Shown: in pieces, positions 25,128-52,296 of the stretch | How positions within the stretch are numbered: the stretch's first letter is position 1 | Layout of the letters: each line of letters begins with the position of its first letter | NCBI RefSeq assembly: GCF_007827795.1 | Contig: NZ_VITI01000002.1 | Span: forward strand, 1-64,000 | Length of the DNA: 64,000 nucleotides | Source of the DNA: Azospirillum brasilense | GTDB lineage: Bacteria > Pseudomonadota > Alphaproteobacteria > Azospirillales > Azospirillaceae | Direction: 5' to 3' | Translations under genes and position numbers: made by a program | The notes under the pieces: model-generated | Databases searched by the model: none | What the model saw: the letters and a program-made list of their open reading frames with translations, nothing else | Told to the model about the DNA's origin: nothing

Positions 25128-25138
25128 GGAGCGGCGGC

Positions 25139-26221: not shown

Positions 26222-26327
26222 CGGATGCTCCCTCCCACCGTCGCCGCTGCGTCCGTCCTGGACTTGGGCGAATTCGGAGACTATTAACCGAAAGAACGCT
26301 AGGGTCGAATGATTAACGAACCGATAA

Positions 26328-28222: not shown

Positions 28223-28251
28223 CGCCGCGCGCGTTCGAAGGGTAAGGGTCC

Positions 28252-28803: not shown

Positions 28804-28934
28804 GCCATGCGGCGGGGGGCTTACGTTGGGCGGTCGGCCGGGAAAGTTTGCCGTCACCCCCACCGAATGTTTGACCAATCCACCGCCGACGCGGTATGCG
28901 GCGGGTATGGGGGCGGCGCCGCGGCGCCGGAAGC

Positions 28935-29689: not shown

Positions 29690-31639
29690 GTGGCGACGCT
29701 GGACGAGGCGCTGGCCATCGCGCTCGACCTCCATACCGCCGGGCGGACGGAGGAGGCGGAGACCCTCTACGGTCGCATCCTCGACGCCGTTCCGGACGAG
29801 CCGAACGCCCTTCACCTCTATGGACTTCTTTGCGCCCAAGGCGGGCGGCTGGAGCAGGCCGCTGAACTTCTGGGCCGGGCGGTGGCGCTGCGTCCCGGCC
29901 TGCCCGAATACCGCGCCAACCTCGCGATGCTGCATCAGGCCCGCGGCGACCCCGCTGCGGCGGCCGAGGAATACCGGGCCGCCTTGTGTCTTTGCCCCGA
30001 TTCGGCGGCGCTCGCCTTCCCGCTGGCCGGAGCGGCGCGGCAAGCGGGGCAGGGCGGGCTCGCCTTGGCGGCCTACCGCCGAACCACCCTCATCCAGCCC
30101 GACCTTGCCGAGCCGATGGTCCAGGCCGGCATCCTGCTGCGCTACGAGGGGCGGACGGTTGAGGCGGTGTCCGTCCTGCGCCGCGCCGTCCGGCTGCGCC
30201 CCGACCATGGGGAGGCGTGGCACCATCTCGGCGTGGCGCTCCAGCGCCTCAAGGACCCGACGGCGCCGACGGCGCTGGCGCACGCCGCCACCCTGTTGCC
30301 GGAGGACGCGACGGTCCGGCTCAATCTCGGCCGCGCCCGTTACGAGGCGGGGCGCTGGGACGACGCCGCAGCGGCCCTGCGCAGCGCGCTGGCGCTCACC
30401 CCGGCGAACGATAGCGCGCTGGAGCTTCTCGCCGCCGCCCGGCACAGAACGGGCGGGGAGGGCGAGACCGTGACGGTGCTGCGCCGTCTGCTGCGGCTGC
30501 GTCCGGACGCGGCGAACGGCTGGCACGCGCTGTCCCTGTCGGAACCCGGCGCCCTGGGGTCGCTCTACCGGGCGTTGGCCCTTCAGCCGGAACACCGCAA
30601 TGCGCTGAGCGGTTTGGCGAACCGGCTGCGCGACCGGCGGGAGATCGCCGCATCGCTGCGCCTGCACGACCGGGCCGTCCGCCTCCAGCCGTCCAGCGCC
30701 GAGGCGCGCTGGAACCGCTCCCTGGCGCGGCTGCTCGCAGGCGACCTGACGGGCGGTTGGGAGGATTACGAGGCGCGTTGGGGCGTGGCCGATTTCCCGA
30801 CCAAACCGCGCGGCCTGCCGCAGCCGCTGTGGAGCGGTGAGGACATTGCCGGGCGGACCATCCTGCTGCACGAGGAGCAGGGCCGCGGCGACGCCATCCA
30901 GTTCGTCCGCTACGCTCCCCTGGTGGCCGCCCGCGGCGCCCGCGTGCTGCTGGAGGTCGGGGCCGATCTGCTTCCGCTGTTCCGCGGCCTGCCGGGGGTT
31001 GAGCGGGTTTTCGCGCGCGGCGAGGCTTTGCCCGCCTTCGACTGGCAGTGCCCGCTGCTCAGCCTGCCGCGCGCCTTCGGCACCCGGCTGGAGACCATTC
31101 CCGCCGCCGTTCCCTACCTGACCGCCGACCCGGCGCGTGCCGCGGCGTGGCGGGAGCGGTTGGCCGGCGACGGCCTCAAGGTCGGGCTGGTCTGGGCCGG
31201 CAACCCGCATTTCGCCGGCGACCGGGAGCGGTCGCCGGGGTTGGCGGCGCTGGCCCCGCTGCTGGCGGTGCCGGGCTGCCGCTTTTTCGGCCTGCAACTC
31301 GGCCCCGGCCATGACGAGGTGGCGCGGCGACCGATGCCCCTGTCCTTCATCGATCTGGAGCCGGAGATCCGCGACTTTGCCGACACCGCGGCGATCATGG
31401 CGTCGCTGGACCTCGTGCTGTCCTCCTGCACCGCGCCTGCCCATCTGGCGGGGGCGCTGGGCGTCCCGCTGTGGCTGCTGCTGTCCCACGCGCCGGACTG
31501 GCGCTGGCTGCTCGACCGCGCCGACAGCCCCTGGTACCCGACCGCCCGCCTGTTCCGCCAACCCCGCCCCGGCGACTGGGCCGCGGTGGCGGAGGAGGCC
31601 GCGGCGGCGCTGGCGGAGCGGGTTGCCGCGCGTTCTTGA
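29690..31639 (+). CDS. TPR-glycosyltransferase protein, one module (FlmG-like)
   Basis: 649 residues. About nine TPR-like units fill residues 5-370; a GT-B/heptosyltransferase-like domain follows (ILLHEEQGRGDAIQFVRYAP at about 390, GLVWAGNPHFAGDRERS, then LDLVLSSCTAPAHLAGALGV). This is the plan of Caulobacter FlmG, whose TPR part binds flagellin and whose GT part adds pseudaminic acid. Its GT domain is of the common WxGNPxHxxDxxRS type, unlike the variants at 42110 and 48568. Start GTG 29690, 14 bp after the preceding stop. Confidence 0.85.
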   Translation: MATLDEALAIALDLHTAGRTEEAETLYGRILDAVPDEPNALHLYGLLCAQGGRLEQAAELLGRAVALRPGLPEYRANLAMLHQARGDPAAAAEEYRAALCLCPDSAALAFPLAGAARQAGQGGLALAAYRRTTLIQPDLAEPMVQAGILLRYEGRTVEAVSVLRRAVRLRPDHGEAWHHLGVALQRLKDPTAPTALAHAATLLPEDATVRLNLGRARYEAGRWDDAAAALRSALALTPANDSALELLAAARHRTGGEGETVTVLRRLLRLRPDAANGWHALSLSEPGALGSLYRALALQPEHRNALSGLANRLRDRREIAASLRLHDRAVRLQPSSAEARWNRSLARLLAGDLTGGWEDYEARWGVADFPTKPRGLPQPLWSGEDIAGRTILLHEEQGRGDAIQFVRYAPLVAARGARVLLEVGADLLPLFRGLPGVERVFARGEALPAFDWQCPLLSLPRAFGTRLETIPAAVPYLTADPARAAAWRERLAGDGLKVGLVWAGNPHFAGDRERSPGLAALAPLLAVPGCRFFGLQLGPGHDEVARRPMPLSFIDLEPEIRDFADTAAIMASLDLVLSSCTAPAHLAGALGVPLWLLLSHAPDWRWLLDRADSPWYPTARLFRQPRPGDWAAVAEEAAAALAERVAARS

Positions 31640-33342: not shown

Positions 33343-34395
33343 GTGCCGCGCGACGTCATCATCAACGGCCGTCCCATCGGCCCCGGCCATCCGCCCTATC
33401 TGATCGCCGAGATGTCGGGCAACCACAAGGGCGACCTGAACCGGGCGCTCGCCCTGGTCGACGCCGCCAAGGAGGCCGGCGCCGACGCGGTGAAGCTGCA
33501 GACCTACACCGCCGACACGCTGACCATCGACCATGACGGGCCGGGCTTCCTGCTGGAGGGCGGGCTGTGGCAGGGCCGCACCCTGCACGACCTCTACCGC
33601 GAGGCCCACACCCCCTGGGAGTGGCATGGCCCGCTGTTCGAGCGCGCGCGCGCCATCGGCCTGGCCATCTTCAGTTCTCCCTTCGACGACACGGCGGTGG
33701 ATCTGCTGGAGCGGTTGGACGCCCCGGCCTTCAAGATCGCCTCCTTCGAGCTGAACGACCTGCCTCTGATCCGCCGGGCCGCCCGCTCCGGCAAGCCGCT
33801 GATCCTGTCCACCGGCCTCGCCACGCTGGGCGAGATCGCCGAGGCGGTGGAGGCGGCGGGCGACGCGCCGCTCGTCCTGCTCCATTGCGTCAGCGGCTAC
33901 CCGACGCCGCCCGAGGACTGCAACCTGCGCACCATCCCGCATCTGGCGCAGGCCTTCGGCGTGGCCGCCGGCCTGTCCGACCACACCCACGGCGCGGCGG
34001 TGCCGGTCGCGGCGGCGGCGCTGGGCGCGGTGGTGATCGAGAAGCATTTCACGCTGTCCCGCGCCGACGGCGGGGTGGACAGCGCCTTCTCCCTGGAACC
34101 GGCGGAGTTCAAGGCGATGGCCGACTCCGTCCGCACCGCCTGGGCGGCCTTGGGCCGCGTCCATTACGGGGTGAAGCCGAGCGAGGCGGGCGGGCGGGAC
34201 TACCGCCGTTCCCTCTACGTCACCGCCGACGTGGCGGCGGGCGAGGCGCTGAGCGCCGTCAGCGTCCGCTCGATCCGTCCCGGCTTCGGCCTGGAGCCGA
34301 AGCATTTCCCCGCCGTGCTCGGCCGCCGCGCCGCCCGCGCCCTGACGCGCGGCGAGCCGCTGCGCTGGGACATGCTGGCTCCGGAGGAGGAATGA
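33343..34395 (+). CDS. pseI: Pseudaminic acid synthase
   Basis: 350 residues. It condenses phosphoenolpyruvate with the 6-deoxy diacetamido sugar to give pseudaminic acid. NeuB-type barrel: YLIAEMSGNHKGDLNRALAL, KLQTYTADTLTIDH, IFSSPFDDTAVDLLE, KIASFELNDLPLI, GLSDHTHGAAVPVAAAALGA; a C-terminal SAF antifreeze-like domain (RRSLYVTADVAAGEALSAVS onward) caps it. The LYREAHTPWEWH segment is typical of PseI rather than NeuB or LegI. Start GTG 33343. The next gene overlaps by 4 bp. Confidence 0.93.
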   Translation: MPRDVIINGRPIGPGHPPYLIAEMSGNHKGDLNRALALVDAAKEAGADAVKLQTYTADTLTIDHDGPGFLLEGGLWQGRTLHDLYREAHTPWEWHGPLFERARAIGLAIFSSPFDDTAVDLLERLDAPAFKIASFELNDLPLIRRAARSGKPLILSTGLATLGEIAEAVEAAGDAPLVLLHCVSGYPTPPEDCNLRTIPHLAQAFGVAAGLSDHTHGAAVPVAAAALGAVVIEKHFTLSRADGGVDSAFSLEPAEFKAMADSVRTAWAALGRVHYGVKPSEAGGRDYRRSLYVTADVAAGEALSAVSVRSIRPGFGLEPKHFPAVLGRRAARALTRGEPLRWDMLAPEEE

Positions 34396-35150
34396 GCGCC
34401 GCCGCGGCCAAGCCGCGCGTCGTCTGCATCTCGCAGGCCCGCATGACCTCGACCCGACTGCCCGGCAAGGTGCTGATGGAAGCGGCGGGGCGGCCGCTGC
34501 TGGCGCATCATCTGGGCCGTTTGGCGCGCTGCCGGACGCTCGACGCGCTGGTGCTGGCGACCACGGCGAACGGCACCGACGACCCGGTGGCGGAGCTGGC
34601 GGGATCGCTCGGCGTGCCGGTGTTCCGCGGCGACGAGCAGGACGTGCTCGGACGCTTCGCCGGGGCCGCCGCCATGGCCGGCGCCGACGTGGTGGTGCGG
34701 GTCACCGCCGATTGCCCGCTGATCGACCCGGCGCTGGTGGACCGTGTGGTGACCGCCTTCCTGGAGTCGGCGCCGCCGCTGGACTATCTCAGCCTGGACG
34801 TCACCCGCTTCCCGCGCGGGCTGGATGCGGAGGTCTTCACCCGCGCCGCTCTGGACGAGGCCGCCGCCTCCGCCACCGACCCGGCGGAGCGCGAGCACGT
34901 CACCGCCCACCTTTACCGCCGCCCGGAGCGTTTCTGCATCGGCGCCCCCCTGACTCCGCAGGACGGCAGCGTCCTGGACCAGCGCTGGTGCGTGGACGAG
35001 CCCGCCGACCTGGAACTGGTCCGCCGCCTGCTGGGCGCCTTGCTTCCCGAAAATCCCGGCTTCGGCTGGCAGGATTGTTGCAATCTGCTGCGCCAGCACC
35101 CTGAATGGGCCGACCTGAACGGCAGCGTGCGTCAGAACACGCTCCACTGA
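34392..35150 (+). CDS. SpsF/PseF-like cytidylyltransferase
   Basis: 252 residues with QARMTSTRLPGKVLMEAAGR at the N-terminus, the nucleotide-binding signature of the SpsF/CMP-sugar synthetase family, then VRVTADCPLIDP for Mg2+/CTP. Placed directly after pseI with ATGA overlap, it most likely makes CMP-pseudaminic acid (the PseF step). SpsF-type sequences are also annotated as glycosyltransferases, so specificity is inferred from position. Confidence 0.85.
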   Translation: MSAAAAKPRVVCISQARMTSTRLPGKVLMEAAGRPLLAHHLGRLARCRTLDALVLATTANGTDDPVAELAGSLGVPVFRGDEQDVLGRFAGAAAMAGADVVVRVTADCPLIDPALVDRVVTAFLESAPPLDYLSLDVTRFPRGLDAEVFTRAALDEAAASATDPAEREHVTAHLYRRPERFCIGAPLTPQDGSVLDQRWCVDEPADLELVRRLLGALLPENPGFGWQDCCNLLRQHPEWADLNGSVRQNTLH

Positions 35151-35399: not shown

Positions 35400-35406
35400 T
35401 CCTGTG

Positions 35407-38415: not shown

Positions 38416-38431
38416 CGGAAGGAGGCGCCCC

Positions 38432-39686: not shown

Positions 39687-41552
39687 ATGGCTACCAGCGA
39701 CATCTCCCTCTCGTCGTCGATGCGCACGAACCTGCTGCAGCTGCAGGGCGTCCAGGACTCGATCGCGAAGAAGCAGAACATCCTCTCGACCGGCAACAAG
39801 ATCAATTCGGCGCTCGACGGCCCGACCTCGTTCTTCGCCGCGAAGAACCTGACCCAGCGCGCCGGCGATCTGACCGCGCTGAAGGACACGATGGGTCAGG
39901 CCATAAGCACCATCAAGGCCGCCGACAAGGGCTTGACCTCGATCGACGACATGATCGAGCAGGCGCGCGGCCTGACCACCGCCGCCTATTCCGCGCTCGG
40001 CACCGACGCCGGCTCCGTCGCCACCCGCAAGTCGCTCTCCAACCAGTTCAACGCGCTGAAGGAGCAGATCGACAAGCTGGCCGGTGACTCCGCCTACGGT
40101 GGCAAGAACCTCCTGGCCGGCAACGGCCTGCGTCTGGACTCCACCAGCGAATCGCGCCGCGCCGTCAACACCATCCAGGGCATCGAGAACGCCCGTGTCA
40201 CCAACGTGGTGTCGACCGACACCTACACGGTGCGCGTCAAGGGCGACGGCTCCATCGAGGGCGCGGCCGGCGAGATCAACAGCGCCGAAATGGCCCACGG
40301 CCTGGTCGGCCTGAAGCTGTCCGGCACGATGAACACGACGGCGGGCAGCTTCTCCGACGTGCAGATCGAGGTCCGCGGCGCGTCGGGCCGCGAGCGGTCC
40401 TTCATCGTCACGGACGGCAACGAGTCCCGCACGGTCACCTACTTCGACAATAGCCAGACCATCGCCGCCAACACGACGACGGCGGCCAAGACGGGCACCG
40501 CGCAGATTACCAACGTGACGCTGGGCGGCACGATCGAAGCCGGCGACAGCTTCACCATCACCGTCGAAGACCAGACCTTCACCTACACCGCCACCGCCGG
40601 CGACGTGGCGACGGGTCAGACCGCGCGCAACAACATCGCCAACCAGCTGAAGGCGTCGATCAACAGCGCGCTGGGCGCCAACGGCCGTCTCAGCGGCAAG
40701 GACGTCCAGACCGTCACGACCGGCTCGTCGGGCACGATCACGCTGTCCGGCGCGACGACGACCAACGCCGCCCGCGAGATGACGGTCAAGGCGACCGCCG
40801 AGAACGCCCTGACCAAGCGCATCTCCGAGAGCTTCGCGTCGGGCACCATCGTGTCCTTCACGGTCGACCGCAAGCTGCTGGAGCAGGCCGCCAACGGCGG
40901 CAACGGCGTCTCGTCGATCGAGAAGAAGGTCGACATCCAGATCTCGGTCAGCAACCTGAGCGGCGCCACGGTGACCCGCGACGGCATGTCCAAGCGCGGC
41001 GAGGGCAAGCTGGCGGACGGCGAGAACGCCTACGCGTTCGACACCGGCACGGTGCGCTTCAACGTCGATCAGAAGAGCATCAAGCAGGCGGCGGCGGCCA
41101 ACTCCGCGGCCAACCTGGTCTCGGTGCAGGTGACCGACGCCAACACCTCGAACGACCTGACGGTGCAGCTCAACGAGCGCAACACCAACGCGATCACGGT
41201 GAAGGCCCAGAACCTGACCACCAGCGGCCAGGGCCTGCGTCTGGACTACGCGCAGAACGACTGGACCGACCGCGCCGACATCGACAAGGCGGTCGCCAGC
41301 ATCGACTACGCGAAGCAGAACCTGCGGTCGTCTTCGCAGACGCTGTCGACCAACCTGAACGTCATCACGACCCGTGAGAACTTCACCAAGGAGTTCAGCG
41401 ACGTGCTGACGGAAGGCGCGAGCAAGCTGACGCTGGCCGACCAGAACGAGGAAGGCGCGAACCTGCTGATGCTGCAGACCCGTCAGCAGCTCGGCACCAT
41501 CGCCCTCTCGCTGGCCAACCAGTCGCAGCAGTCGATCCTGCGTCTGTTCTAA
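39687..41552 (+). CDS. Flagellin
   Basis: 621 residues. The N-terminal D0/D1 (SDISLSSSMRTNLLQLQGVQ, then LSTGNKINSALDGPTSFFAA) and C-terminal D1/D0 (LSTNLNVITTRENFTKEFSD to QQSILRLF) are conserved. The ~350-residue central region is rich in Thr, Ser, Asn and Ala, with many potential O-glycan sites. Size and setting fit the glycosylated polar flagellin Fla1 of A. brasilense, although lateral flagellin is not excluded. The filament is exported by the type III flagellar system. AAAAGGAG lies 7 nt before the ATG. A strong terminator follows. Confidence 0.96.
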   Translation: MATSDISLSSSMRTNLLQLQGVQDSIAKKQNILSTGNKINSALDGPTSFFAAKNLTQRAGDLTALKDTMGQAISTIKAADKGLTSIDDMIEQARGLTTAAYSALGTDAGSVATRKSLSNQFNALKEQIDKLAGDSAYGGKNLLAGNGLRLDSTSESRRAVNTIQGIENARVTNVVSTDTYTVRVKGDGSIEGAAGEINSAEMAHGLVGLKLSGTMNTTAGSFSDVQIEVRGASGRERSFIVTDGNESRTVTYFDNSQTIAANTTTAAKTGTAQITNVTLGGTIEAGDSFTITVEDQTFTYTATAGDVATGQTARNNIANQLKASINSALGANGRLSGKDVQTVTTGSSGTITLSGATTTNAAREMTVKATAENALTKRISESFASGTIVSFTVDRKLLEQAANGGNGVSSIEKKVDIQISVSNLSGATVTRDGMSKRGEGKLADGENAYAFDTGTVRFNVDQKSIKQAAAANSAANLVSVQVTDANTSNDLTVQLNERNTNAITVKAQNLTTSGQGLRLDYAQNDWTDRADIDKAVASIDYAKQNLRSSSQTLSTNLNVITTRENFTKEFSDVLTEGASKLTLADQNEEGANLLMLQTRQQLGTIALSLANQSQQSILRLF

Positions 41553-41684: not shown

Positions 41685-42113
41685 ATGCCTCTGAAGTTCG
41701 TTCTCCGCCCCAATGAAAAGGTCATCATCAACGGTGCGGTCATCGGGGCCGGTGATCGTCCCGGCTCCTTTTTCCTTTACAACACCGCCAACTTCCTTCG
41801 TGGGCGTGAGGTGTTGAAGGAAGAGCAGATCGATTGCATCGAAAAGAAGCTCTACTTCGTCATCCAGCTTATTTATATCTTCCCGGAAGACGCGGTGCTC
41901 AACCTGCAGCGCTTTGCTTCCATTCTGGCCGAGACGCGCGAAGCCCGGCCGGATTGCCGCGACGACCTTGAAGAGATCGAACGGCTGGTCGAAGCGCGCA
42001 ACCACTACCGCGCCCTGAAAATCTGCCGGAAGATGTTCAAGGGTGGGTCCGAGGCGTCACCCAACGCCGCCGACGGTGCGGCGGACAGCCCGGCGGTCGA
42101 TCCGGCGCCGTGA
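41685..42113 (+). CDS. flbT: Flagellar biosynthesis repressor FlbT
   Basis: 142 residues. The start MPLKFVLRPNEKVIINGAVI and the following FFLYNTANFLRGREVL and LYFVIQLIYIFPEDAV are FlbT hallmarks. In Caulobacter FlbT binds the flagellin mRNA leader and destabilises it until hook assembly is complete. Here it sits directly downstream of the flagellin. The C-terminal ~25 residues are Ala/Pro/Asp-rich and extra. Its stop overlaps the GTG start of the giant TPR gene. No flaF is seen nearby. Confidence 0.93.
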   Translation: MPLKFVLRPNEKVIINGAVIGAGDRPGSFFLYNTANFLRGREVLKEEQIDCIEKKLYFVIQLIYIFPEDAVLNLQRFASILAETREARPDCRDDLEEIERLVEARNHYRALKICRKMFKGGSEASPNAADGAADSPAVDPAP

Positions 42114-45100
42114 TCGAAGCGGGCCTGCAGGGTTGGGACGACCGGTCGGCGGACGATGTTCTGACCGACGCCATCGCACAGCATCGCGCGGGGAATCTGG
42201 ACGAGGCACGGGCACTCTACAGCCGCATCCTGTCCGCCGACCCATCCCATACCGATGCCCGGCACCTGTCCGGCATCGCCAACTATCAGGCCGGTCAGGC
42301 CGCGCAAGCCTCGGCGTGCTTCCGGGCGACCCTGGCGATCGATCCGTCCTTCGCCGCCGCCTACAACAGCCTGGGCAACGTCCTGGCCGACCGGAGCCGT
42401 CCGGACGATGCGGCCCGCGCCTATCGCCGCGCCATCGCGCTTCAGGACGGCTATGCGGAGGCGCTCGGCAATCTCGGTCTGCTTCTGCAGGCGCAGGAGC
42501 GGATCGACGATGCCATCGCCGCTTATGAGGCGGCGCTGCGCGCCGATCCCGGGCGCACCGCGACCCGCTTCGATGTGGCGGTGCTCCTCCGCCGCCGCGG
42601 TCGTCTGGACGAGGCCGCCCTGGCTTTCTACCAAGTGGTCCAGGCGCAGCCGGACCATGCCGAGGCCTGGCGCAGCCTGGCGCTCGTGCTGCGCGTCCTG
42701 AACCATTCCGACGCGGAACTGTGCCTGCGCCGCGCCCTGTCCGATGATCCGACGGACCGCGAAGTGGCGCGGGGCCTGGGAACGCTTCTGAACGAGCGCG
42801 GCGACTTCGCCGAGGCGGTGGCGGTTCTGGCTCCGGCGGTGGATGCCGACACGGGCACGGGCACGGGCCGGGACGCGCGACTGCTCTTCCATTTGGGCAG
42901 CGCGCTTCAGGGGGGCGACCGTCTGGCGGAGGCGGCTGCCCGCTATCGTGAAGCGCTGTCGCAGGACCCGCTGCTGGCAGGGGCGTGGAACAATCTTGGC
43001 GTGGCGCTGCTCGACCTGGGAGACCACGCCGCCGCGGTGATGGCGCTGCGAGCGTGCATCGCGTTGCGGCCCACCGATGCGGTGGCCTTTAACAATCTGG
43101 GCACCGGTCTCGACGGCGTTGAGCGACCGGATGAGGCCGCCGGCGTCTTCCAGCGAGCGCTGATCATTCAGCCGGACTATGGCAAGGCGCTGAACAATCT
43201 CGGCAATTCCCGCCGGGCCGCGCGCCGGGCGGAGGCCGCTGCCGCGCTGTACCGGCGGGCGCTGATCGTCCAACCGGACTATCCCGACAGCTACACCAAC
43301 CTCGGCAACGTCCTCAAGGATTGGGACGACTGGCCGGGTGCGCTGCGCCTGCACCGGCGCGCGGTTCGTCTGGCACCGCGGAGCGCCATCGCGCTGACCA
43401 CCCTGGGTCTTGCCCTGAATGTGCTGGGACGGAACGAGGAGGCGGAAGCCGCGCATCGGCGCGCTCTGTCCATCGACGCGGGGCATGCGGAAGCCTATGC
43501 CAACCTCGGCATGCTGCAATGGCAGTCAACGCGCGTTGTGGAAGCGGAGCGAACCCTGCGCCGCGCCCTGCGCATCGACCCGACCCTGGCGGCGGCACGG
43601 CTGAACTTCGCCCTGGTCAGCCTCGCGAGCGGCAATCTGCCGGAGGGCTGGGATGCCTATCAGGACCGGTTCAAGGCCAAGGAGCATCCGGAGCGAACCA
43701 TCGCGGCGCCGCTCTGGCGGGATGACGGAGCGGCCGTCCGCCGGCTTCTGGTCTGGCGCGAGCAGGGGGTGGGGGACGAACTGATGTTCGCCTCCTGCTA
43801 CCCCGCCCTAGCGGATCGCGTGGCGGCGAACCGGATCGGTCAGGTCATCCTGGAGTGCGACCGTCGGCTGGTCAGCCTGTTCAGCCGCTCCTTCCCCTGG
43901 GCCACCGTCCGGGGGGAAACCGCGGCTGCCGACGGAACGGAGACCCTGGTCCCTCCGGACTGCGACGCCCACATCGCCGCGGGCGCTCTCCCACGCCTCC
44001 TGCGTCCGGATCTGGCGAGCTTCCCGCCCCGTCCCTGGCTGGTGCCCGACCCGGAACGCCTCGCCGTCTGGCGGGAGCGGCTCGCCGCCCTGGGGCCGGG
44101 GCTGAGGATCGGCATCGCCTGGCGCAGCCAATTGATGACGACCGAACGGAAGGCCGCCTACATCACTCTGGAAGCGTTCGCGCCTCTGTGCGCGATTCCC
44201 GGAGTGGTGCTCGTCAATCTGCAGTACGGGGATTGCGCGGCGGAGATCGCGGCGGCGGAGGCGCGCTTCGGCGTGACCATCCACCGCTGGGACGATCTGA
44301 ATCTCAAGGATGATTTCGAGGGTGCGGCGGCCCTGACCGCTTCGCTCGATCTGGTCATCGCGCCCGCCGTGTCCACCGGCGAACTGGCGGGAGCCCTGGG
44401 CGTGCCGGCTTGGCGCATCGGCGCCCGCGACTGGACGCAGCTCGGCACCGGCGTCCGCCCCTGGTACCCGACGATGCGCCTGTTCCAGCCCCGCCCCGGC
44501 GAGACTCTGGCAGCCGTCATGGCGCGCATCGCCCTGACCCTGCGCGCTCTGGCGCGGCCGGTCGAGGGCATCACCAGCCGTCCAACCGCCGCACCCGTGG
44601 ATGTCGCCCCGGTGGTGGCCAAGGCCATCGCCCACTACCGCGCCGGGGCGCTGAAGGAGGCGGAGGAGCATTGCCGGACGGCGCTGGACGCCCTGCCGGA
44701 GCATCCCGTAGCCCTCCATCTCCTGGGAATTCTGCGGCTTCGCCAAGGCGATGCCGGCGACGCGGTGGTGGTGCTGGCCCTCGCGGTGAAGGCCGATCCC
44801 GACAACGCCGCCGCCCATGCCGCGCTGGCCGATGCCTGCAAGGCGACTGGTCGGCACGATGCCGCTCTGGCGGTGCAGCGCAACGCCGTGCTTCTCCGTC
44901 CGGACGCGGCGGAGCATTGGCTCAACCGCACCGCCCTCCTGCGGGGGCGTGGCGACGCCGAGGATGCGGAAGCCTGCGCGCGGCGCGCCCTGCGACTTCA
45001 CCCGGTGCTCGGCGTGGCGCACACCCATCTGGGGCACCTGCTCGCCGAGCGCGGGGACCGGGCGGGGGCGGAGCGGAGCCATCGGCGGGCGCTTGCCCTG

Positions 45101-48094
45101 ACGCCGTCGGAGGTGGATGCGCTGGTGAGCCTCGGCGCGCTCCACCTGAGGGCCGACCGGCCAGCGGAGGCGGAGCGGCTGTTGCGTCGCGCCACCGTGA
45201 CCGCACCCGACGCCGCCGTCGCCTGGAGCCACCGGGGCAGCGCGCTCGACCGGCTGGGTCGTGTCGAGGAGGCGTTCGCCTGCCACGGCCGGGCGGTCGA
45301 CCGAGCGCCGGAGATGGCGGAGGCTCAGGCGAATCTCGCCATGCATTGGGCGCGGCGGCAGCGACCGGCCGAGGCCATCGCCGCCTACCGTCAGGCCATC
45401 CGGATCGATCCGGCGCTGCCGACCGCTCATTACAACCTGTCGCTCCTGCTTCTGGAGCAGGGGGAGCTTCGCCCCGGATGGGCGGAGCATGACTGGCGCT
45501 TCAACACCCCCCAGTTCGGCGACCAGAAGCGGCGCTTCGCCGCGCGGCCCTGGCGTGGCGAGAACGTCGCCTCCGCCCGCCTGCTGGTCTGGCGGGAGCA
45601 GGGGGTGGGCGACGAGATTCTCTTCGCCTCCTGCTATCCCGATCTGCTGCGCCGCGCCGGGCATCTGGTGGTCGAATGCGACCGCCGTCTGGTGTCGCTC
45701 TTCGCACGCTCCCTCCCCGGAGCGACGGTCCGCCCGCCGACCGTGGAGCCGCGTGACGTGGACGTGCAGGTCGCCGCCGCGTCGCTACCGCGGTTTCTGC
45801 GGTCCGATAGGAAGCGGTTCCCGGCCCGGCCCTGGCTGGTGCCCGATCCCGGACGTGTGGACCACTGGCGGGACCGGCTGGCCGTTCTGGGGCCGGGACT
45901 GAGGGTCGGCATCGCGTGGCGCAGCCAGATCATGGATGGGGAGCGGCGGGCCGCCTACGTCACGCTCGACGCCTTGGCGCCGCTGTTCGCCGTGCCGGGC
46001 GTGGTCTTCGTCAATCTGCAGTACGGGGATTGCGAGGCGGAGATCGCGGCGGCGGAGGCTCGCTTCGGCGTGACCATCCACCGCTGGGACGATCTCAATC
46101 TCAAGGACGACTTCGAGGGCGCGGCGGCCCTGACGGCCAATCTGGATCTCGTCCTCACGCCCGCAGTCTCCTCCGGCGAACTGGCCGGCGCCCTCGGCGT
46201 GCCGGTGTGGCGCTTTGGGCATCGCGACTGGACGCAGCTCGGCACCGGCGTCCGTCCCTGGTTCCCGTCGATGCGACTCTTCCAACCACGCCCCTGCGAA
46301 GGGCTGGACGCCGTCATGGGCCGGATGGCGGCCACGCTGCGCCGGCTCATGCCCGGGGACGACGAACCGCCGCCCGGCGATGTTGCATGTGATCCGGACG
46401 CGCTGCTGGACACCGCCGCCGCCCATCACCGGGACGGTCGGCTGGCCGAGGCGGCTCCGCTGTACGAGCGCGTGCTGACGGCGCGGGCCGACCACCCGGT
46501 CGCTCTTCACCTGTCGGGATTGCTGGCGCACCAAAGCGGCGATTCCGATGCGGGTGCGGCGCGCATCACCCGTGCCCTGGACGCGCTGCCCACTTACGGT
46601 GCGGCCCAATCGAGCCTGGGAACCGTGCTGCTGGCGCTTGGCCGTGCGCCGGAGGCCGTGCGTCGGTTCCGTTTGGCGCTCGCCCTGCAGCCCGCCGCCG
46701 CGGCCACTCTGACCAATCTCGGCAACGCGCTGGAGGCGGCGCACGAGCTGACCGCCGCCGCCGAGGCTCACCGCCGGGCAACCTTGGCCGACCCGGTGCT
46801 GGCGGAGGCGCATGACAATTGGGGCGCCGTGCTGACCCGGCTCGGCGCGTTGGAGGCGGCCGAGGGGCGCCATCGCCACGCCCTGCGCCTGGCCCCGGAC
46901 CGCGAGGTTGGCTGGCTCAATCTGGGGGTGGCGCTGCGCCGGGTGGGGCGGCTGGACGACGCGCGGCGGGCGCTGGTCCGCGCGCTGGCCCTGGCGCCGG
47001 CGCAAGAGGATGCGTTGGGCAACCTGGGCCGATTGCTGCGGGACCGGGGCGAAGCCGTCGCGGCGGAGCGCTGGTGCCGCCGTGCCCTGGCGGTTGAGCC
47101 GGGGCATCCGGCGGCCGCCTTCAACCTCGGGCTGCTGGATCTGGCCCGCGGCCGGCTGGAGACGGGCTGGGCCGGCTACGACGCCCGCTTCCGCGCCCGT
47201 GAGCTGTCCGGTGCCGCCCGGGTCGTCCCGGTTCCCGCCTGGGAGGGGGAGGACCCCTCCGGCCTTCGCTTTCTGGTCTGGGCGGAACAGGGGATCGGTG
47301 ACGAGATCCTGTTCGCCGGTTGCCTGGACGAGCTGATCGCGCGGGCCGCCGCCGTGGTGGTGGAGTGCGACCGACGGCTGGTGCCGCTGTTCGCGCGGTC
47401 CTTCCCCCGCGCGGAGTGGCGTCCGGCCCCGGCGGACCCGGAGGCGCCCTGCGCCGGCATCGACCGCCACGTCGCCATGGGATCGTTGCCACGCTGGTTG
47501 CGGACCCGCCTCGACCACTTTCCGCAACGCCCATCCTTTCTGACCGCCGACCCGAAGCGGGCCGCCCGTTGGCGGGAGAGGGTGGACGCGCTCGGCCCCG
47601 GCCTGAAGGTCGGCATTGCGTGGCGCAGCGGGCTGATGACGGCGGAGCGTCGCGGAGCCTACGCACCGCTGGACATGTGGGGGCCGGTGTTCGCGCTGCC
47701 GGGGGTGGTTGTCGTCACCCTGCAATACGGTGACTGCGCCGCCGAGATCGCCGAGGCGGAGCGTCGGTTCGGCGTGACCATCCACCGCTGGGACGATCTG
47801 GACCTGAAGGACGACCTGGATGGCGTGGCGGCCCTGATGACGGCGCTCGACCTTGTCGTCACGCCGGCGAGTTCGGTGGGGGAATTGGCGGGAGCGCTGG
47901 GCATGCCGGTCTGGCGGTTCGGGCCACCGGGCGATTGGACGGCGCTCGGCACCGGGGCGCGGCCCTGGTTCCCGACCATGGCTTTGATCCCCGCGCCGCC
48001 GGGACAGCCGGCGTCCGGCGCCTTGCCGACAATCGCGCGCCGTCTGGCCGGGCTCCGTCCCAAGGCGGCGCCAGTCGTCGGAAAGAAAACATAA
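42110..48094 (+). CDS. Giant TPR-glycosyltransferase with three modules (FlmG-like)
   Basis: 1994 residues built of three head-to-tail TPR+GT modules. TPR blocks span about 10-530, 835-1140 and 1430-1705. GT-like domains span about 540-815, 1155-1410 and 1718-1994, each opening with LVW(R/A)EQG(V/I)GDE and continuing with GIAWRS, LQYGDC.AEIA, HRWDDL.LKDD and GELAGALG. Cytosolic, no membrane segment. Caulobacter FlmG has one such pair and glycosylates flagellin. Start is GTG 42110, coupled to flbT by a 4-bp overlap. The first and second GT domains are nearly identical in DNA over 126 bp. Confidence 0.85.
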   Translation: MIEAGLQGWDDRSADDVLTDAIAQHRAGNLDEARALYSRILSADPSHTDARHLSGIANYQAGQAAQASACFRATLAIDPSFAAAYNSLGNVLADRSRPDDAARAYRRAIALQDGYAEALGNLGLLLQAQERIDDAIAAYEAALRADPGRTATRFDVAVLLRRRGRLDEAALAFYQVVQAQPDHAEAWRSLALVLRVLNHSDAELCLRRALSDDPTDREVARGLGTLLNERGDFAEAVAVLAPAVDADTGTGTGRDARLLFHLGSALQGGDRLAEAAARYREALSQDPLLAGAWNNLGVALLDLGDHAAAVMALRACIALRPTDAVAFNNLGTGLDGVERPDEAAGVFQRALIIQPDYGKALNNLGNSRRAARRAEAAAALYRRALIVQPDYPDSYTNLGNVLKDWDDWPGALRLHRRAVRLAPRSAIALTTLGLALNVLGRNEEAEAAHRRALSIDAGHAEAYANLGMLQWQSTRVVEAERTLRRALRIDPTLAAARLNFALVSLASGNLPEGWDAYQDRFKAKEHPERTIAAPLWRDDGAAVRRLLVWREQGVGDELMFASCYPALADRVAANRIGQVILECDRRLVSLFSRSFPWATVRGETAAADGTETLVPPDCDAHIAAGALPRLLRPDLASFPPRPWLVPDPERLAVWRERLAALGPGLRIGIAWRSQLMTTERKAAYITLEAFAPLCAIPGVVLVNLQYGDCAAEIAAAEARFGVTIHRWDDLNLKDDFEGAAALTASLDLVIAPAVSTGELAGALGVPAWRIGARDWTQLGTGVRPWYPTMRLFQPRPGETLAAVMARIALTLRALARPVEGITSRPTAAPVDVAPVVAKAIAHYRAGALKEAEEHCRTALDALPEHPVALHLLGILRLRQGDAGDAVVVLALAVKADPDNAAAHAALADACKATGRHDAALAVQRNAVLLRPDAAEHWLNRTALLRGRGDAEDAEACARRALRLHPVLGVAHTHLGHLLAERGDRAGAERSHRRALALTPSEVDALVSLGALHLRADRPAEAERLLRRATVTAPDAAVAWSHRGSALDRLGRVEEAFACHGRAVDRAPEMAEAQANLAMHWARRQRPAEAIAAYRQAIRIDPALPTAHYNLSLLLLEQGELRPGWAEHDWRFNTPQFGDQKRRFAARPWRGENVASARLLVWREQGVGDEILFASCYPDLLRRAGHLVVECDRRLVSLFARSLPGATVRPPTVEPRDVDVQVAAASLPRFLRSDRKRFPARPWLVPDPGRVDHWRDRLAVLGPGLRVGIAWRSQIMDGERRAAYVTLDALAPLFAVPGVVFVNLQYGDCEAEIAAAEARFGVTIHRWDDLNLKDDFEGAAALTANLDLVLTPAVSSGELAGALGVPVWRFGHRDWTQLGTGVRPWFPSMRLFQPRPCEGLDAVMGRMAATLRRLMPGDDEPPPGDVACDPDALLDTAAAHHRDGRLAEAAPLYERVLTARADHPVALHLSGLLAHQSGDSDAGAARITRALDALPTYGAAQSSLGTVLLALGRAPEAVRRFRLALALQPAAAATLTNLGNALEAAHELTAAAEAHRRATLADPVLAEAHDNWGAVLTRLGALEAAEGRHRHALRLAPDREVGWLNLGVALRRVGRLDDARRALVRALALAPAQEDALGNLGRLLRDRGEAVAAERWCRRALAVEPGHPAAAFNLGLLDLARGRLETGWAGYDARFRARELSGAARVVPVPAWEGEDPSGLRFLVWAEQGIGDEILFAGCLDELIARAAAVVVECDRRLVPLFARSFPRAEWRPAPADPEAPCAGIDRHVAMGSLPRWLRTRLDHFPQRPSFLTADPKRAARWRERVDALGPGLKVGIAWRSGLMTAERRGAYAPLDMWGPVFALPGVVVVTLQYGDCAAEIAEAERRFGVTIHRWDDLDLKDDLDGVAALMTALDLVVTPASSVGELAGALGMPVWRFGPPGDWTALGTGARPWFPTMALIPAPPGQPASGALPTIARRLAGLRPKAAPVVGKKT
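44216..44341 (+). repeat. Internal DNA repeat, copy 1 (GT domain 1)
   Basis: From AATCTGCAGTACGGGGATTG this 126-bp stretch matches 46013-46138 with about eight mismatches, most in third codon positions. It encodes NLQYGDCAAEIAAAEARFGV and the start of the HRWDDL region. The identity exceeds that between either copy and GT domain 3, pointing to recent duplication or gene conversion. Confidence 0.8.
46013..46138 (+). repeat. Internal DNA repeat, copy 2 (GT domain 2)
   Basis: Partner of the 126-bp repeat at 44216. The copies are in the same frame, 1797 bp (599 codons) apart, which approximates the length of one TPR+GT module. Confidence 0.8.
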
Positions 48095-48099
48095 AGAAA

Positions 48100-48134
48100 G
48101 CCGGGAGCGAACCGTCCGCCGCTCCCGACTTTTC
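48100..48134. terminator. Terminator between convergent genes
   Basis: CGGGAGCG (48102-48109) pairs with CGCTCCCG (48120-48127), followed by ACTTTTC on the plus strand and preceded by AAAGAAAG, so T-rich on the minus strand too. It likely ends both the giant TPR gene and the convergent YdcH gene. Confidence 0.75.
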
Positions 48135-48158
48135 GAATCGGATCGATCCGGAAGGGTG

Positions 48159-48341
48159 TTAATTCACCCTGTGACTGGTTCTGGCCAAGCGATCAATTTC
48201 TTCCTTGAGGTGGAGCTTCTCAAGCTTCATCCGCTTGATGGCACTATCGTCAGGCCACGAACGCTTCTCCTCGTCGAGGATGGCGCGGTCGAGACGCAGG
48301 TGCTTTTCCTGCAAGGAAGATAGGCGAGCATCAGTGTGCAT
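48159..48341 (-). CDS. YdcH family (DUF465) small protein
   Basis: 60 residues, helical, Lys/Glu/Leu-rich. LSSLQEKHLRLDRAILDEEK and LKLEKLHLKEEIDRL-type heptads match the DUF465/YdcH family of short coiled-coil proteins, whose function is unknown. GGAGAGCAGCCC precedes the ATG. Convergent with the giant TPR gene. Confidence 0.88.
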   Translation of the reverse strand: MHTDARLSSLQEKHLRLDRAILDEEKRSWPDDSAIKRMKLEKLHLKEEIDRLARTSHRVN

Positions 48342-48567
48342 GGGCTGCTCTCCGTCAGATCGAACCGGCTCCTGCCAAGTCCGGCAGGCCGGAAACCATA
48401 GTGTTCACCCATCCGTGCTGCCAAACAACCCCAAACTTTTGTCCTAGTACTCCAAAGACGGGGGGTGACCGCCCCTTACGATGGGGGGGTAGGACGATTC
48501 GCCGCATAGGCCTGCCTTTTGCCGTTCGTTGCGGAATTAGACCAAAAGGCGGAGTTTCCTTGCGTCG

Positions 48568-51500
48568 TCATACCTCGTCGGGGTTGGGGTTCGTCATCAT
48601 CCGGGTCAGCATCCGGGCAATTCGGCGGAGCAGGTCGGCGGAGGTCTCGCCGGGGTGTGGCGCGATCAGCCTTTGGGTGGGGAACCAGGGCCGCACCCCG
48701 CTGCCCATCCAGGTCCAGTCACGGCTGCCCAGCCGCCAGACCGGCACCCCCAGGGAGCCCGCCAACTCACCGGCGGCGGTGGCGGGCAGGATGACGAGGT
48801 CGAGCGCCGCCATCAGGGCCGCCACGCCCTCCAGATCGTTCTTCAGGTCCAGATCGTCCCAGCGATGGACGCGCTGCACGCCGTCCGGCTCGATGGAGGC
48901 CAATTCGGCGGCGCAGTCGCCGTATTGCAGGTTGACGATGCGGAGGCCGGGCACCTCCAGCAGCGGCAGCCAATCCGTGATGCGGGTGTAGGCGCCTTCG
49001 CGGTGCGCCGTGACGATCTGGCTGCGCCAACTGATGCCCACCTTCAGGCCGGGGCCGAGCGCGTCCACCCGCTCCCGCCAGAGGGCGGCCCGTTCCAGGT
49101 CCGGAGTTAGGAAGGACGGGCGGGCCGGAAAGCGCTCCAGCCGGTCCCGCCGCAGGGCGGGCAGGGAGCCGGCGGCGATCTGCAGGTCGCAATCCGGCGG
49201 GTCGAACCGCTCCCGCCCGTCGGCGGTGACGGATTCCGCCCGCACGGTTGCCCAGGGAAAGGCGCGGGCGTAGAGGGACACCAGGCGCGCATCGCACTCC
49301 AGGACCACGGACCCGCCGCTCTCCTTGAGGTCGCCGAAGACGGAGGCGAAGAGGATCTCGTCGCCCAGCCCCTGCTCCGGCCAGACCAGCAGACGGCGCC
49401 CGTGCAGGGGCTCGCCGTTCCAGACGGGCAGCGCGATGCGGCGCGCCCGCTGAAGCTGGCGGGCGGAGAAACGGCGACCGTAACCGGCCCAGCCGGTGAC
49501 GAGGTCGCCGTCCGCCAGGGCCATCAGCCCGACGTTCCAGGCGGCGAGCGCCAGCCCGGGAGCCACCCGCAGGGCGCGGTCGAGGAAGTGCCGGCAGAGG
49601 GCCGGACGATCCGCCATCTTGGCGAGGGTGCCCAGGTTGTTCAGGGTGTCGGCGGAGTCCGGCCGCAGGGTCAGGGCGCGCCGGTAATGGGCCGCGGCGT
49701 CGTCGAAGCGTCCTTCCACTTCGCAGGCGTAGCCCAGGTTGGTGTGGGCCGCCGGGTTGGCCGGGGCGAGATGGATGGACCGGCGGTGCCAGCGCTTGGC
49801 CTCGGCCAGCCGGTCCGGCCCGTTCATGCTCAGCCCCATGTGGGTCATCGCCTCGGGGAAGTCCGGGCGCAGCGCGATCGCCCGGCGGAAGCAGGCGAGG
49901 GCGTGGTCCGGGCGGTTCAGGGCCTGCTGGACGAGGCCCAGATGGTTCCAGGCGGTGGGGAAATCCGGATCGATCCGGAGCGCCGCCGCGATGTTGCGCT
50001 CCGCCTCCGCGTGATGGCCCGCCTGATGCCGGGTCAGGCCGAGAAGATGGAGCGCGTCGCCGTGCCGTGGCGCCAGATCGAGGACCGCGCGGTAGGCCGC
50101 CATGGCGTCGTCCAGCCGCCCCGCCCGGTGCAGGGCGATGGCGTGGTTCAACAAGGCTTCCGGATCGGCGGGCGGCGGCGACGTCGGGGCCGAGGGGGGA
50201 GCGGCCACGCGGTCGGGAACAGGGGGCGGAGCGGGCCGCATCGCGGCAAGGCCGCGCGCCATGCCCGCCAGCACCTCGCCGAAGGTTTCGCCTGCACGTG
50301 GCTGGAACAGACGCATCGTCGGGAACCAGGGGCGGACGGCGGTGCCGAGCTGCGTCCAGTCGCGGTGCCCGAAGCGCCACACCGGCACGCCCAAGGCCCC
50401 GGCCAACTCACCCGCCGCCATCGCCGGGGTGATGACGAGGTCCAGATTGGCGGTCAGGGCCGCCGCGGCTTCGAAATCGTCCCTCAGATCCAGATCGTCC
50501 CAGCGGTGGATGGTCACACCGAAGCGTTTCTCCGCCGCCGCGATCTCCGCCGCGCAGTCGCCGTATTGCAGGGTGACGAACACCATTCCCGGCAGCGCGA
50601 ACAGGGGCGCCCACTGGTCCAAGGTGGTGTAGGCGCCCTTGTGCTCGGGCGTCGCAAGCTGGCTGCGCCACGCGATGCCGACCTTCAGGCCCGGCCCAAG
50701 GGCATCCAACCGGTCCCGCCACAGGGCGGTGCGGGCCGGATCGGGCTTCAGCCAGGGCGTGAACTGGTCGAAGGAGGCGAGCGTTCCCCGCAGCAGTCCG
50801 GGTAGGCTGGCCGCCGGAATCTGAAGGTCGACGTCGGGGGGAACCATGGTTTCCCGCCCTTCGGCATCCAGCGTTTCCGCCCGCACCGTCGCGCGTGGGA
50901 AGGACCGGGCGAACAGGCCGACCAGCCGCGGGTCGGTTTCTATGGTCACCGGCCCGCCGCCCCAGGCGATCACATCGCCATAGCAGGAGGCGAACAGGAT
51001 CTCGTCCCCGATCCCCTGTTCCCGCCAGATCAGCAGTCGGCGCCGGCGCAGCCCCTCGCCGCGCCACCGCGGCGCGTCGATCCGCCGGTCGGGCAGAACC
51101 CGGCCGGCGGCGAAGCGCCGTTCGTAGCCCTCCCAGCCGCGCTCCAGCCGTCCGTGCAGAAGGGCGATGACGGCGAGGTTGTCGCTGGCGCTGGCGAGGT
51201 TCGGGTCGTGGGCCAGCGCCTCCTCGTAACAGGCTTCCGCCTTCGCGAACTGCCCCTGCGCCCGAAGCGCGTTGCCGAGGTTGTGGATGGCCTCGACGGC
51301 GTGGGGGTTCCGGCTGAGCACCTTGCGGAAGCACCGCTCGGCCTGGGCGGGGCGTCCCAGCTTCAGAAGAACGCTGCCCAGATCGTTCAGCGTCACCGGG
51401 TTGTCGGGTGCGCGCTTCAGCGCCTCACGGTAGGCGATCTCCGCACCCTCATAGGCGCCCTTGCGTTGCAGGGCGGTGCCGAGATTGTGGTGGGCCTTCG

Positions 51501-52158
51501 GGTCGTCGGGCCGCAGCCGCAGCGCGGCGCGGGCCTGGGCCAGCGCCTCGTCCAGCCGCCCGGCGGCGCTCAAGGCATCGCTGAGGTTGGTGTGGGCCTC
51601 GACCATCGCAGGGGCCAGCACCGCGGCGCGGGCGAAGGCGCGCAAGGCGTCGGCAAGGCGGTTCTGAGCGCGCAGCGCGTTGCCGAGGTTGTACCAGGCC
51701 TTGGCGTAGCCCGGTTCAAGCTCCACCGCCGTGGTGAAGGCCAGCGCCGCCAATCCCGGCAGCGCCTGCGCCTGGAAGGCGTTGCCCAGATTGTGGCGCG
51801 GCTGGGCCGACAGGGGAGTCAGCGCGGCGGCCATGCGGTGCGCGTCCGCCGCCTCGGCGTGGCGGTCCAGCGCGGCGAGCGCGCTTCCCAGATTGTCGTG
51901 GTAGTCGGCGACGCCGCCGGCCTGCCGGATGGCTTCCTCGATCAGCTCCACGGCGGGGCCGGGATGCCCGGCCTGGAGCGCCAGAACGCCCAGCAGATGC
52001 AGCGCGTCGGGGTGGCGCGGGTCGGCGGCCAGGACGGTGCGGTAGTCGCGTTCCGCATCGGCCAGCCGGCCCGCCCGATGGTGGGCGACGGCACGGCCGA
52101 GCCGGGCGGCGACGTCGTCCGGTGTCGTCGGCGAAGCCTGGTCGGGGGGCTGGTTCAT
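48568..52158 (-). CDS. TPR-glycosyltransferase protein with two modules (FlmG-like)
   Basis: 1196 residues: TPR (about 15-360), GT (about 370-635), a Pro-rich linker (PAPPPVPDRVAAPPSAPTSP, about 640-660), TPR (663-905) and GT (about 918-1196). GT domains open with LLIWREQGIGDEILFAS and LLVWPEQGLGDEILFAS and share the LQYGDCAAE and HRWDDLDL motifs of the giant protein, so both genes derive from one ancestor. I start at ATG 52158 (MNQPPDQ) with GGAAAAGGCGA upstream; 29 more residues are possible. It is divergent from the TPR-methyltransferase gene. Likely a cytosolic flagellin glycosyltransferase. Confidence 0.85.
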   Translation of the reverse strand: MNQPPDQASPTTPDDVAARLGRAVAHHRAGRLADAERDYRTVLAADPRHPDALHLLGVLALQAGHPGPAVELIEEAIRQAGGVADYHDNLGSALAALDRHAEAADAHRMAAALTPLSAQPRHNLGNAFQAQALPGLAALAFTTAVELEPGYAKAWYNLGNALRAQNRLADALRAFARAAVLAPAMVEAHTNLSDALSAAGRLDEALAQARAALRLRPDDPKAHHNLGTALQRKGAYEGAEIAYREALKRAPDNPVTLNDLGSVLLKLGRPAQAERCFRKVLSRNPHAVEAIHNLGNALRAQGQFAKAEACYEEALAHDPNLASASDNLAVIALLHGRLERGWEGYERRFAAGRVLPDRRIDAPRWRGEGLRRRRLLIWREQGIGDEILFASCYGDVIAWGGGPVTIETDPRLVGLFARSFPRATVRAETLDAEGRETMVPPDVDLQIPAASLPGLLRGTLASFDQFTPWLKPDPARTALWRDRLDALGPGLKVGIAWRSQLATPEHKGAYTTLDQWAPLFALPGMVFVTLQYGDCAAEIAAAEKRFGVTIHRWDDLDLRDDFEAAAALTANLDLVITPAMAAGELAGALGVPVWRFGHRDWTQLGTAVRPWFPTMRLFQPRAGETFGEVLAGMARGLAAMRPAPPPVPDRVAAPPSAPTSPPPADPEALLNHAIALHRAGRLDDAMAAYRAVLDLAPRHGDALHLLGLTRHQAGHHAEAERNIAAALRIDPDFPTAWNHLGLVQQALNRPDHALACFRRAIALRPDFPEAMTHMGLSMNGPDRLAEAKRWHRRSIHLAPANPAAHTNLGYACEVEGRFDDAAAHYRRALTLRPDSADTLNNLGTLAKMADRPALCRHFLDRALRVAPGLALAAWNVGLMALADGDLVTGWAGYGRRFSARQLQRARRIALPVWNGEPLHGRRLLVWPEQGLGDEILFASVFGDLKESGGSVVLECDARLVSLYARAFPWATVRAESVTADGRERFDPPDCDLQIAAGSLPALRRDRLERFPARPSFLTPDLERAALWRERVDALGPGLKVGISWRSQIVTAHREGAYTRITDWLPLLEVPGLRIVNLQYGDCAAELASIEPDGVQRVHRWDDLDLKNDLEGVAALMAALDLVILPATAAGELAGSLGVPVWRLGSRDWTWMGSGVRPWFPTQRLIAPHPGETSADLLRRIARMLTRMMTNPNPDEV

Positions 52159-52296
52159 GGGGTTCGCCTTTTCCGTCTGCCCGATCCGGACCCGTGTCTC
52201 AGGGCCTTCCACCGGTCTGTTGCCGGAAGGGAGTGCCATGTTCACCGGTTCCCGGTAAAGATGCTGTTAGCCCATGCCCCATTCAGGAGCCGTTCC

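Follow-up and report, generated by a model that had tools for sequence, protein, structure and literature searches.

Multi-module glycosyltransferases of the FlmG type beside a flagellin gene of Azospirillum brasilense, and gene conversion of one half of the enzyme

The window analysed here, a stretch of 64,000 nucleotides at the start of contig NZ_VITI01000002.1 (assembly GCF_007827795.1) of Azospirillum brasilense, holds two long genes close to a flagellin gene, whose products we call protein A (1994 amino acids (aa), 215 kDa) and protein B (1196 aa, 130 kDa). Both are built of modules in which a tetratricopeptide repeat (TPR) array is followed by a glycosyltransferase (GT) part, three in A (A1, A2, A3) and two in B (B1, B2). 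We propose that A and B are FlmG-type chains with module-specific acceptor sites and, for A1, A2 and B1, a common sugar donor, an explanation to which, taken whole, we assign a probability of about 0.6. It is carried by a division within the modules: the TPR array and the N-terminal half of the GT stay specific to each module across 12 genomes, while the sequences indicate that gene conversion, both inside A and from one chain to the other, keeps the C-terminal half alike in A1, A2 and B1.

Architecture and family of proteins A and B

The first-pass annotation of this DNA had read the two genes as chains of three and two TPR plus GT units lying, with a single-module protein (protein C), around the flagellin gene, and reading frames, motif counts and positions agree with that description. 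The motifs WxEQGxGDE, GIxWRS, LQYGDC and HRWDDL each occur three times in A and twice in B, and the GT parts of the other four modules are 56-69% identical to that of A1, the figure for the GT of C being 39%. The frame of B is open back to a GTG at 52245. Many Pfam TPR models match the TPR parts, and the five GT parts have no Pfam family match at E<=1. Scans of A with Pfam, NCBIfam and PADLOC returned nothing beyond TPR-driven matches; NCBIfam names such as PilW and MamA, some of them over cut-off, owe their matches to the TPRs and were disregarded.

The AlphaFold model of module A2 (mean predicted local distance difference test (pLDDT) 96.7, predicted template modelling score (pTM) 0.91) consists of a nine-TPR superhelix and the GT, whose strand order fits two Rossmann domains in a GT-B-like arrangement. 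Protein B is modelled as two confident modules (mean pLDDT 86.9, pTM 0.49); given that pTM and a pLDDT under 50 for residues 643-662 between them, the mutual placement of B1 and B2 is not fixed by the model. With the whole TPR plus GT chain as query, the top Foldseek row is SPY (E 5e-19, TM 0.28) and the top VIA-align row is OGT (7ntf, Z 28.1, 417 aligned, root-mean-square deviation 13.4). Designed TPR-only proteins tie with the OGT row at Z 27 and, with SPY at that TM, the searches therefore reveal TPR plus GT and little more. A sequence search of the PDB with a single GT found no match; a 49-row GT profile had 1psw as its nearest entry there (E 0.16), no close relative. Besides 1psw, the sole sequence trace of the GT part is PF01075 (GT9), which matches 6 of the 49 family members (best 5e-6). 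An alignment of 193 FlmG-type modules has 32 residue columns with conservation of 95% or more, which the five Azospirillum module groups retain with scattered exceptions, the largest being V for L1303 in 5 of 25 A1 modules; the seven fully invariant residues are always retained. Because the near-invariant residues of the family are kept, all five modules look active.

To which family do these GTs belong? An alignment of the five GTs was used in one scan of a collection of named genomes, and the best 80 of 302 confirmed stretches were kept, giving 66 loci (35 Azospirillum-type and 31 others, with at most 10 kb a side and often less). Three Caulobacter loci and one metagenome-assembled genome (MAG) named CAULO1 encode a single-module protein of about 600 aa, whose gene adjoins flbT, at least three flagellin matches and a GNAT gene. 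In Caulobacter crescentus, flmG is CCNA_01524 and the adjacent tag, CCNA_01523, is flmH (PMC7591256). The four loci fit flmG, an identity that rests on locus context rather than on a comparison with the C. crescentus sequence. All four proteins carry LQYGDC and none carries HRWDDL. A profile built from their GTs was scored on all 20 TPR-GT modules of the A. brasilense genome: A1-A3, B1 and B2 lead with 205-236 bits, together with a single-module paralogue on contig C23 (199.5 bits; no flagellin match in the 18 kb around it), and among the other 14 a pair on contig C1 scores 171 and 131, C scores 127.5, the ninth rank, and eleven score 123 or less. The A and B GTs are 37-40% identical to one Caulobacter relative. 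LQYGDC stands at the alignment position of LQLGPG in C, so the GTs of A, B and C are homologous, yet two arginines and one tyrosine, almost always kept in the FlmG-type set, are missing from C, and its GT has only a GT9 match (E 0.075, below the Pfam cut-off). The earlier annotation was thus right in calling A and B FlmG-like and in its motif contrast, A and B lacking the WxGNP...D..RS of C and carrying LQYGDC and HRWDDL; its suggestion that they form the distinct subfamily has to be turned around, since with LQYGDC present in the Caulobacter-type proteins it is A and B that carry the FlmG-type GT and C that is the more distant. A and B share with FlmG the TPR N part and GT-B-like C part, the closest GT, the linkage to flagellin and flbT and the pseudaminate pathway, and differ in having three and two modules per chain, a single module not being taken as defining. 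We regard them as a variant of the FlmG-type flagellin glycosyltransferase, for which flagellin binding and pseudaminate transfer are predicted by analogy. The two neighbouring TPR-GT frames on C1 (G000:C1:722483-725503, L139) have GT scores between the FlmG-type set and C.

The chains recur throughout the genus. The best named matches of the modules are from Azospirillum, with up to 91% identity over a module, and all 45 Azospirillum genomes have a match at 1e-90 or better, 44 of them at least four and one (G031) a single one. G031 has neither modules of A/B grade nor a match to the window flagellin, alone among the 45 in this combination; G042 also has no match to the flagellin, yet six modules, a gap perhaps due to a cut at a contig end, as the A. 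tabaci locus (L009) starts inside the flagellin gene. Both the three-GT and the two-GT frame are present in 21 of the 35 Azospirillum-type loci, of which two are not whole (L035 has a partial domain, and the A frame of L018 starts just before the first GT); the remaining 14 are contig-end pieces, have interrupted frames or one of the two only, or carry extra paralogues. A three-plus-two pair recurring in 21 of 35 loci is not a matter of chance. FlbT is found in 24 and flagellin in 23 of the 35, and one or the other in 15 of the 31 other loci. Some Azospirillum species have further one- and two-module FlmG-type genes (L036, L037, L040), near NeuB, nucleotidyltransferase, KAS III or PseG matches. 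An Azospirillum locus at 82% identity stands in a record named Roseomonas genomospecies 6 (L024), probably a misnomer, and FlmG-type modules in MAGs named Egibacteraceae and Halomonas (L044, L047) reflect either binning error or transfer.

In a sample of 385 genomes of the class, in which at most five candidates per genome were scored, 52 match at 1e-55, two of these being Azospirillum. The frames listed are mostly single modules of about 500-780 aa; exceptions are a sister genus, in which two genomes encode four modules in a single frame of about 2255 aa, and one further genus, with two modules per frame in three genomes. Multi-module chains occur in 4 of the 31 named non-Azospirillum loci, two of them from Planctomycetes. 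In a 92-row GT tree each of the five module groups forms one side of a branch against the others (support for A3 100/99, B2 100/100, A2 86/99, A1 57/95, B1 59/99). In a FastTree tree A1, B1 and A2 of A. picis (L034) fall together. The four-module proteins of the sister genus form a group of their own (89/88) and the two modules of an Oceanibaculum chain are not mutual nearest relatives; modules were therefore probably joined into chains several times.

Gene conversion of the C-terminal half

Across GT-B enzymes the nucleotide sugar is bound by the second domain, with the first turned towards the acceptor, an arrangement established for the fold and presumed for the present family. Each module was divided into three parts, the last 230 residues of the TPR array, the N half of the GT and its C half, with the border between the halves set eight residues before GIxWRS, a point that in the A2 model lies between a helix and the strand taken as the first of the second Rossmann domain. 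One set comprised 12 genomes, that of the window and 11 selected among the 21 loci that have both chains; a second comprised nine, since of ten stretches fetched L135 was without a two-module chain. As L131 (G010) is probably the same assembly as L019, the two sets cover at most 20 genomes. Rows lacking the split motif were left out, four of them in the analyses of approximately unbiased (AU) tests and extra modules and three in the second set.

In the 12 genomes (120 pairs within genomes, 330 orthologous), identity among modules of one genome and among orthologues is 31.5% versus 60.7% for the TPR, 53.3% versus 69.2% for the N half and 66.4% versus 72.5% for the C half. Among A1, A2 and B1 that order is inverted in the C half, with 80-81% within a genome and 73-77% between genomes. 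Quick trees of the TPR and of the N half contain 4 module changes, the minimum, against 17 for the C half, in which A1, A2 and B1 group by genome in 6 of the 12 (L014, L016, L017, L019, L020, L025), while A3 and B2 stay whole groups (99 and 98). AU tests reject single C-half groups for A1 (4.5e-7), A2 (3.5e-48) and B1 (4.5e-66). At third codon positions identity among A1, A2 and B1 is 0.79-0.96 in the C half and 0.48-0.68 in the N half in 5 of the 12 genomes; the second set has 5 of 9 with 0.75-0.97 and 0.57-0.70 and 4 without, one of the latter probably L019 again. High C-half identity at third positions is thus present in 10 of at most 20 genomes. In A. tabaci (L009), windows of A2 and B1 are 98-100% identical, and where a third gene stands in the same genome (L037, with L025) it has the same C half (95-96%). 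The extra modules compared in five other genomes have 65-75% identity with the A1, A2 and B1 of their own genome, and the four-module proteins of the sister genus have no such likeness of their C halves (45-57%). In DNA sequence the C half of A1 has 61-74% identity with that of A3 or B2, and these two modules stay mostly out of the exchange. In L019 the C halves group by genome, yet third-position identity is 0.46-0.55, so any conversion there is old.

High third-position identity limited to the C half, together with grouping by genome, points to gene conversion confined to one domain. Purifying selection alone was considered as a cause of the alike C halves and rejected in lineages with third-position identity near 0.9. 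Assembly error was also weighed: five of the fetched genomes, in seven to ten contigs each, have the pattern again, single draft errors being possible. Searches of an open-access library, some of them on other topics, found no report of multi-module FlmG or of its gene conversion.

A proposed model for flagellin glycosylation

What are the implications of a moving C half for the modification of flagellin? We suggest that five ancient, still active FlmG modules have been joined into two chains of cytoplasmic flagellin O-glycosyltransferases. The TPR superhelix and N-terminal Rossmann half of each module would present a different stretch of the polar flagellin, the role of the TPRs being taken from Caulobacter FlmG, and the C-terminal Rossmann half would hold a nonulosonic acid in activated form, most probably CMP-pseudaminic acid, or an acylated derivative, from the same island. 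A1, A2 and B1 would share one donor, with conversion keeping their donor halves equal. The modules that end the two chains, A3 and B2, would have donor halves of their own and might serve other sites, another derivative or an already added sugar.

The surroundings of the genes are consistent with this model. The gene order is flagellin, flbT, A and then the convergent B, beside a pseudaminate island, and the tie to flagellin drawn in the first-pass annotation is strengthened by the recurrence of this linkage in Azospirillum loci. A. brasilense polar flagellin is described as a glycosylated protein of 65 kDa which runs at about 100 kDa (PMC8100600, PMC12826043). The flagellin of the window fits it in size, and A and B would be the candidates for its glycosylation. 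The genome has a single match to a nonulosonate synthase of the PseI type, and the Maf flagellin glycosyltransferase (PF01973) has no genome match at E<=0.001; the simplest reading is then that A1, A2 and B1 draw on one nonulosonate donor and serve several acceptor sites. A PseC over its cut-off, with a PseB-like gene recognised by eye adjacent to it, lies on a contig other than that of the island (G000:C40, 781-3083, L138). The earlier annotation had left the choice between several sugars and several sites; with a C half common to and exchanged among A1, A2 and B1 and a TPR and N half specific to each module, several sites with one sugar are favoured for these three of the five modules.

We also entertain, tentatively, a more far-reaching version of this model, in which the enzyme is template-like: each module has its own flagellin site and the sugar half is an exchangeable cartridge spread by gene conversion. 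In such a system the set of modules could change its sugar together while site choice stays fixed. In both versions evolution has separated two functions, the acceptor-side parts being fixed per module and the sugar-side half moving between modules, in a process, cytoplasmic O-glycosylation, whose specificity has been called poorly understood (PMC7591256). The separation makes a direct test possible in a plant-associated genus with a polar flagellin reported to be glycosylated, and offers a natural plan for the construction of multi-site protein glycosylation.

Several observations weigh against the proposed explanation. The loci were gathered with LQYGDC/HRWDD patterns, which biases motif counts towards these motifs, and the subfamily border appears gradual: six modules lead, those on C1 are intermediate and C is distant, so that at 171 and 131 bits the border is less sharp than a first 14-row ranking suggested. 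Support for the A1 (57) and B1 (59) groups is low. Ten of at most 20 genomes fall short of high third-position identity in one or more of the three pairs, and the clade to which the window belongs has a weak signal (C halves of A1 and A2 80% identical at the DNA level, third position 0.65), the window having two overlapping 75-base windows at 95% between A1 and A2. B2 is not wholly outside conversion, as one 30-codon window of A1-B2 in L016 is at 95%. Conversion may also be neutral, persisting where copies are still alike enough, with no selection for one donor, which weakens the inference on selection and leaves the likeness of the donor halves unaffected. Caulobacter FljK is modified at four threonines with a one-module FlmG (PMC7591256), so several sites do not call for five modules. 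The Sp7 polar flagellin glycan is described as an O-antigen-like repeat of Rha, Fuc, Gal and GlcNAc, and the passages of these reports on the glycan name no nonulosonic acid (PMC3958885, PMC8100600); our model leaves this glycan unexplained, and the sugar nucleotidyltransferase of the island could supply another sugar. A fit of module number to flagellin size was considered and dropped, the independent cases being too few.

That glycan is the starting point of the first alternative, a relay in which successive modules add different sugars in order and so build the known oligosaccharide. Five modules, C and a GT4-like protein near one flagellin, the nucleotidyltransferase, the published repeat (PMC3958885) and the separate donor halves of A3 and B2 are what it would lead one to expect. 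We consider it unlikely, for the donor halves of A1, A2 and B1 are common and exchanged, all modules have the same motifs and near-invariant residues, and a partial scan of the island proteins recognised no enzyme of a rhamnose or fucose pathway. Of the assembly line of the first-pass annotation, what is supported is that each chain has several modules that look active; an ordered relay would go beyond this.

The same near-invariant residues would suit equivalent copies that merely raise local concentration or processivity on many flagellin sites, as would the low-confidence, perhaps flexible, linker between B1 and B2 and the reported migration of the 65 kDa flagellin at about 100 kDa (PMC8100600, PMC12826043). 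Equivalent copies, however, need no distinct orthologous groups, and the TPR and acceptor halves are conserved as such groups in the 12 genomes, which makes this avidity account quite improbable. That A and B modify a protein other than flagellin is very improbable: 16 of the 31 non-Azospirillum loci, some from Planctomycetes, have no flagellin or FlbT match, and the 19.9 kb surrounding each four-module gene of the sister genus contain no flagellin, but with loci of the lengths given above such absence is weak evidence. In G218 a flagellin gene shares the contig of the four-module gene at a distance of about 17 kb, many Azospirillum loci have flagellin, flbT and A side by side, and modules and flagellin are jointly absent in G031.

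Surrounding genes and known systems

Positions of the features are collected in Table 1. The island (24357-28245 and 35302-39544) also encodes two KAS III proteins, a short-chain dehydrogenase/reductase (SDR; two more by eye), an AMP ligase, an alpha/beta hydrolase and a Rieske oxygenase, and the presence of this set within a pseudaminate island suggests an acyl, perhaps 3-hydroxybutyryl, derivative of the nonulosonate. PseH-like and Rieske matches are also found near the four-module genes of the sister genus. Mutants of Azospirillum in flmA/flmB and fabG have reportedly been studied in earlier work. Divergent from B is a gene for a TPR plus S-adenosylmethionine (SAM) methyltransferase (about 52300-53586, forward strand, frame 51154-53586), whose methyltransferase part is matched in 21 of the 35 Azospirillum-type loci and which may perhaps serve TPR-guided methylation of flagellin or its glycan. 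A second flagellin (G000:C10:33629-35491, L137) is 92% identical to that of the window, with no FlmG-type GT match within 19 kb around it.

Table 1. Features of the window, with positions counted from its first letter
Feature	Positions	Strand	Remarks
PseG	23300..24370	+	180 bits, cut-off 154
PseH-like N-acetyltransferase	28252..28803	+	70 bits, below cut-off 93
Sugar nucleotidyltransferase in island	28896-29675
Protein C, single TPR+GT, another subfamily	29690..31639	+	without several FlmG-type residues
GT4-like protein	31705-33312
PseI, pseudaminate synthase	33343..34395	+	487 bits, cut-off 340
Cytidylyltransferase domain protein	34392..35150	+	start approximate
Flagellin, 621 aa, 65.05 kDa	39687..41552	+	probable main substrate
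FlbT	41685..42113	+	overlaps A; Pfam over cut-off, NCBIfam below cut-off
Protein A, 1994 aa, modules A1-A3	42110..48094	+	GTG start overlaps FlbT stop
A1 TPR array, about 506 aa	42110..43627	+	Pfam TPR models
A1 GT	43628..44572	+	C half from about 44087, in conversion group with A2/B1
A2 TPR array	44573..45457	+	18 helices, 9 TPRs in AlphaFold model
A2 GT	45458..46363	+	C half from about 45884, in conversion group
A3 TPR array	46364..47146	+	Pfam TPR models
A3 GT	47147..48085	+	C half outside conversion group
Protein B, 1196 aa, modules B1, B2	48568..52158	-	ATG at 52158
B2 GT	48574..49512	-	C half mostly outside conversion group
B2 TPR array	49513..50172	-	about 7 TPRs in model
Segment 643-662 between B1 and B2	50173..50232	-	pLDDT under 50
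B1 GT	50209..51156	-	C half from about 50703 down, in conversion group with A1/A2
B1 TPR array	51157..52158	-	20 helices, 10 TPRs in model

How do A and B compare with known systems? FlmG of C. crescentus (CCNA_01524) likewise joins a TPR N part to a GT C part and, in the account given of it, works with a pseudaminate pathway (PMC7591256). Its relatives in the three Caulobacter genomes and the CAULO1 MAG lie, like A, beside flbT and flagellins and have LQYGDC; they have one module of about 600 aa where A and B have three and two, and are without HRWDDL. The GT41 enzymes OGT and SPY also join a TPR superhelix to a GT and head the whole-chain structural rows, tied with TPR-only proteins, but they have one catalytic unit and give no sequence match to the GT part in the PDB searches. 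The GT9 heptosyltransferases have the traces noted above in common with A and B (PF01075 in 6 of 49 members, 1psw at E 0.16), and they have no TPR and act on lipopolysaccharide. The exchange itself recalls the adenylation subdomains of modular nonribosomal peptide synthetases, in which the substrate-choosing half is swapped between modules by recombination; in A and B, by contrast, the exchange makes modules alike, and does so in a glycosyltransferase.

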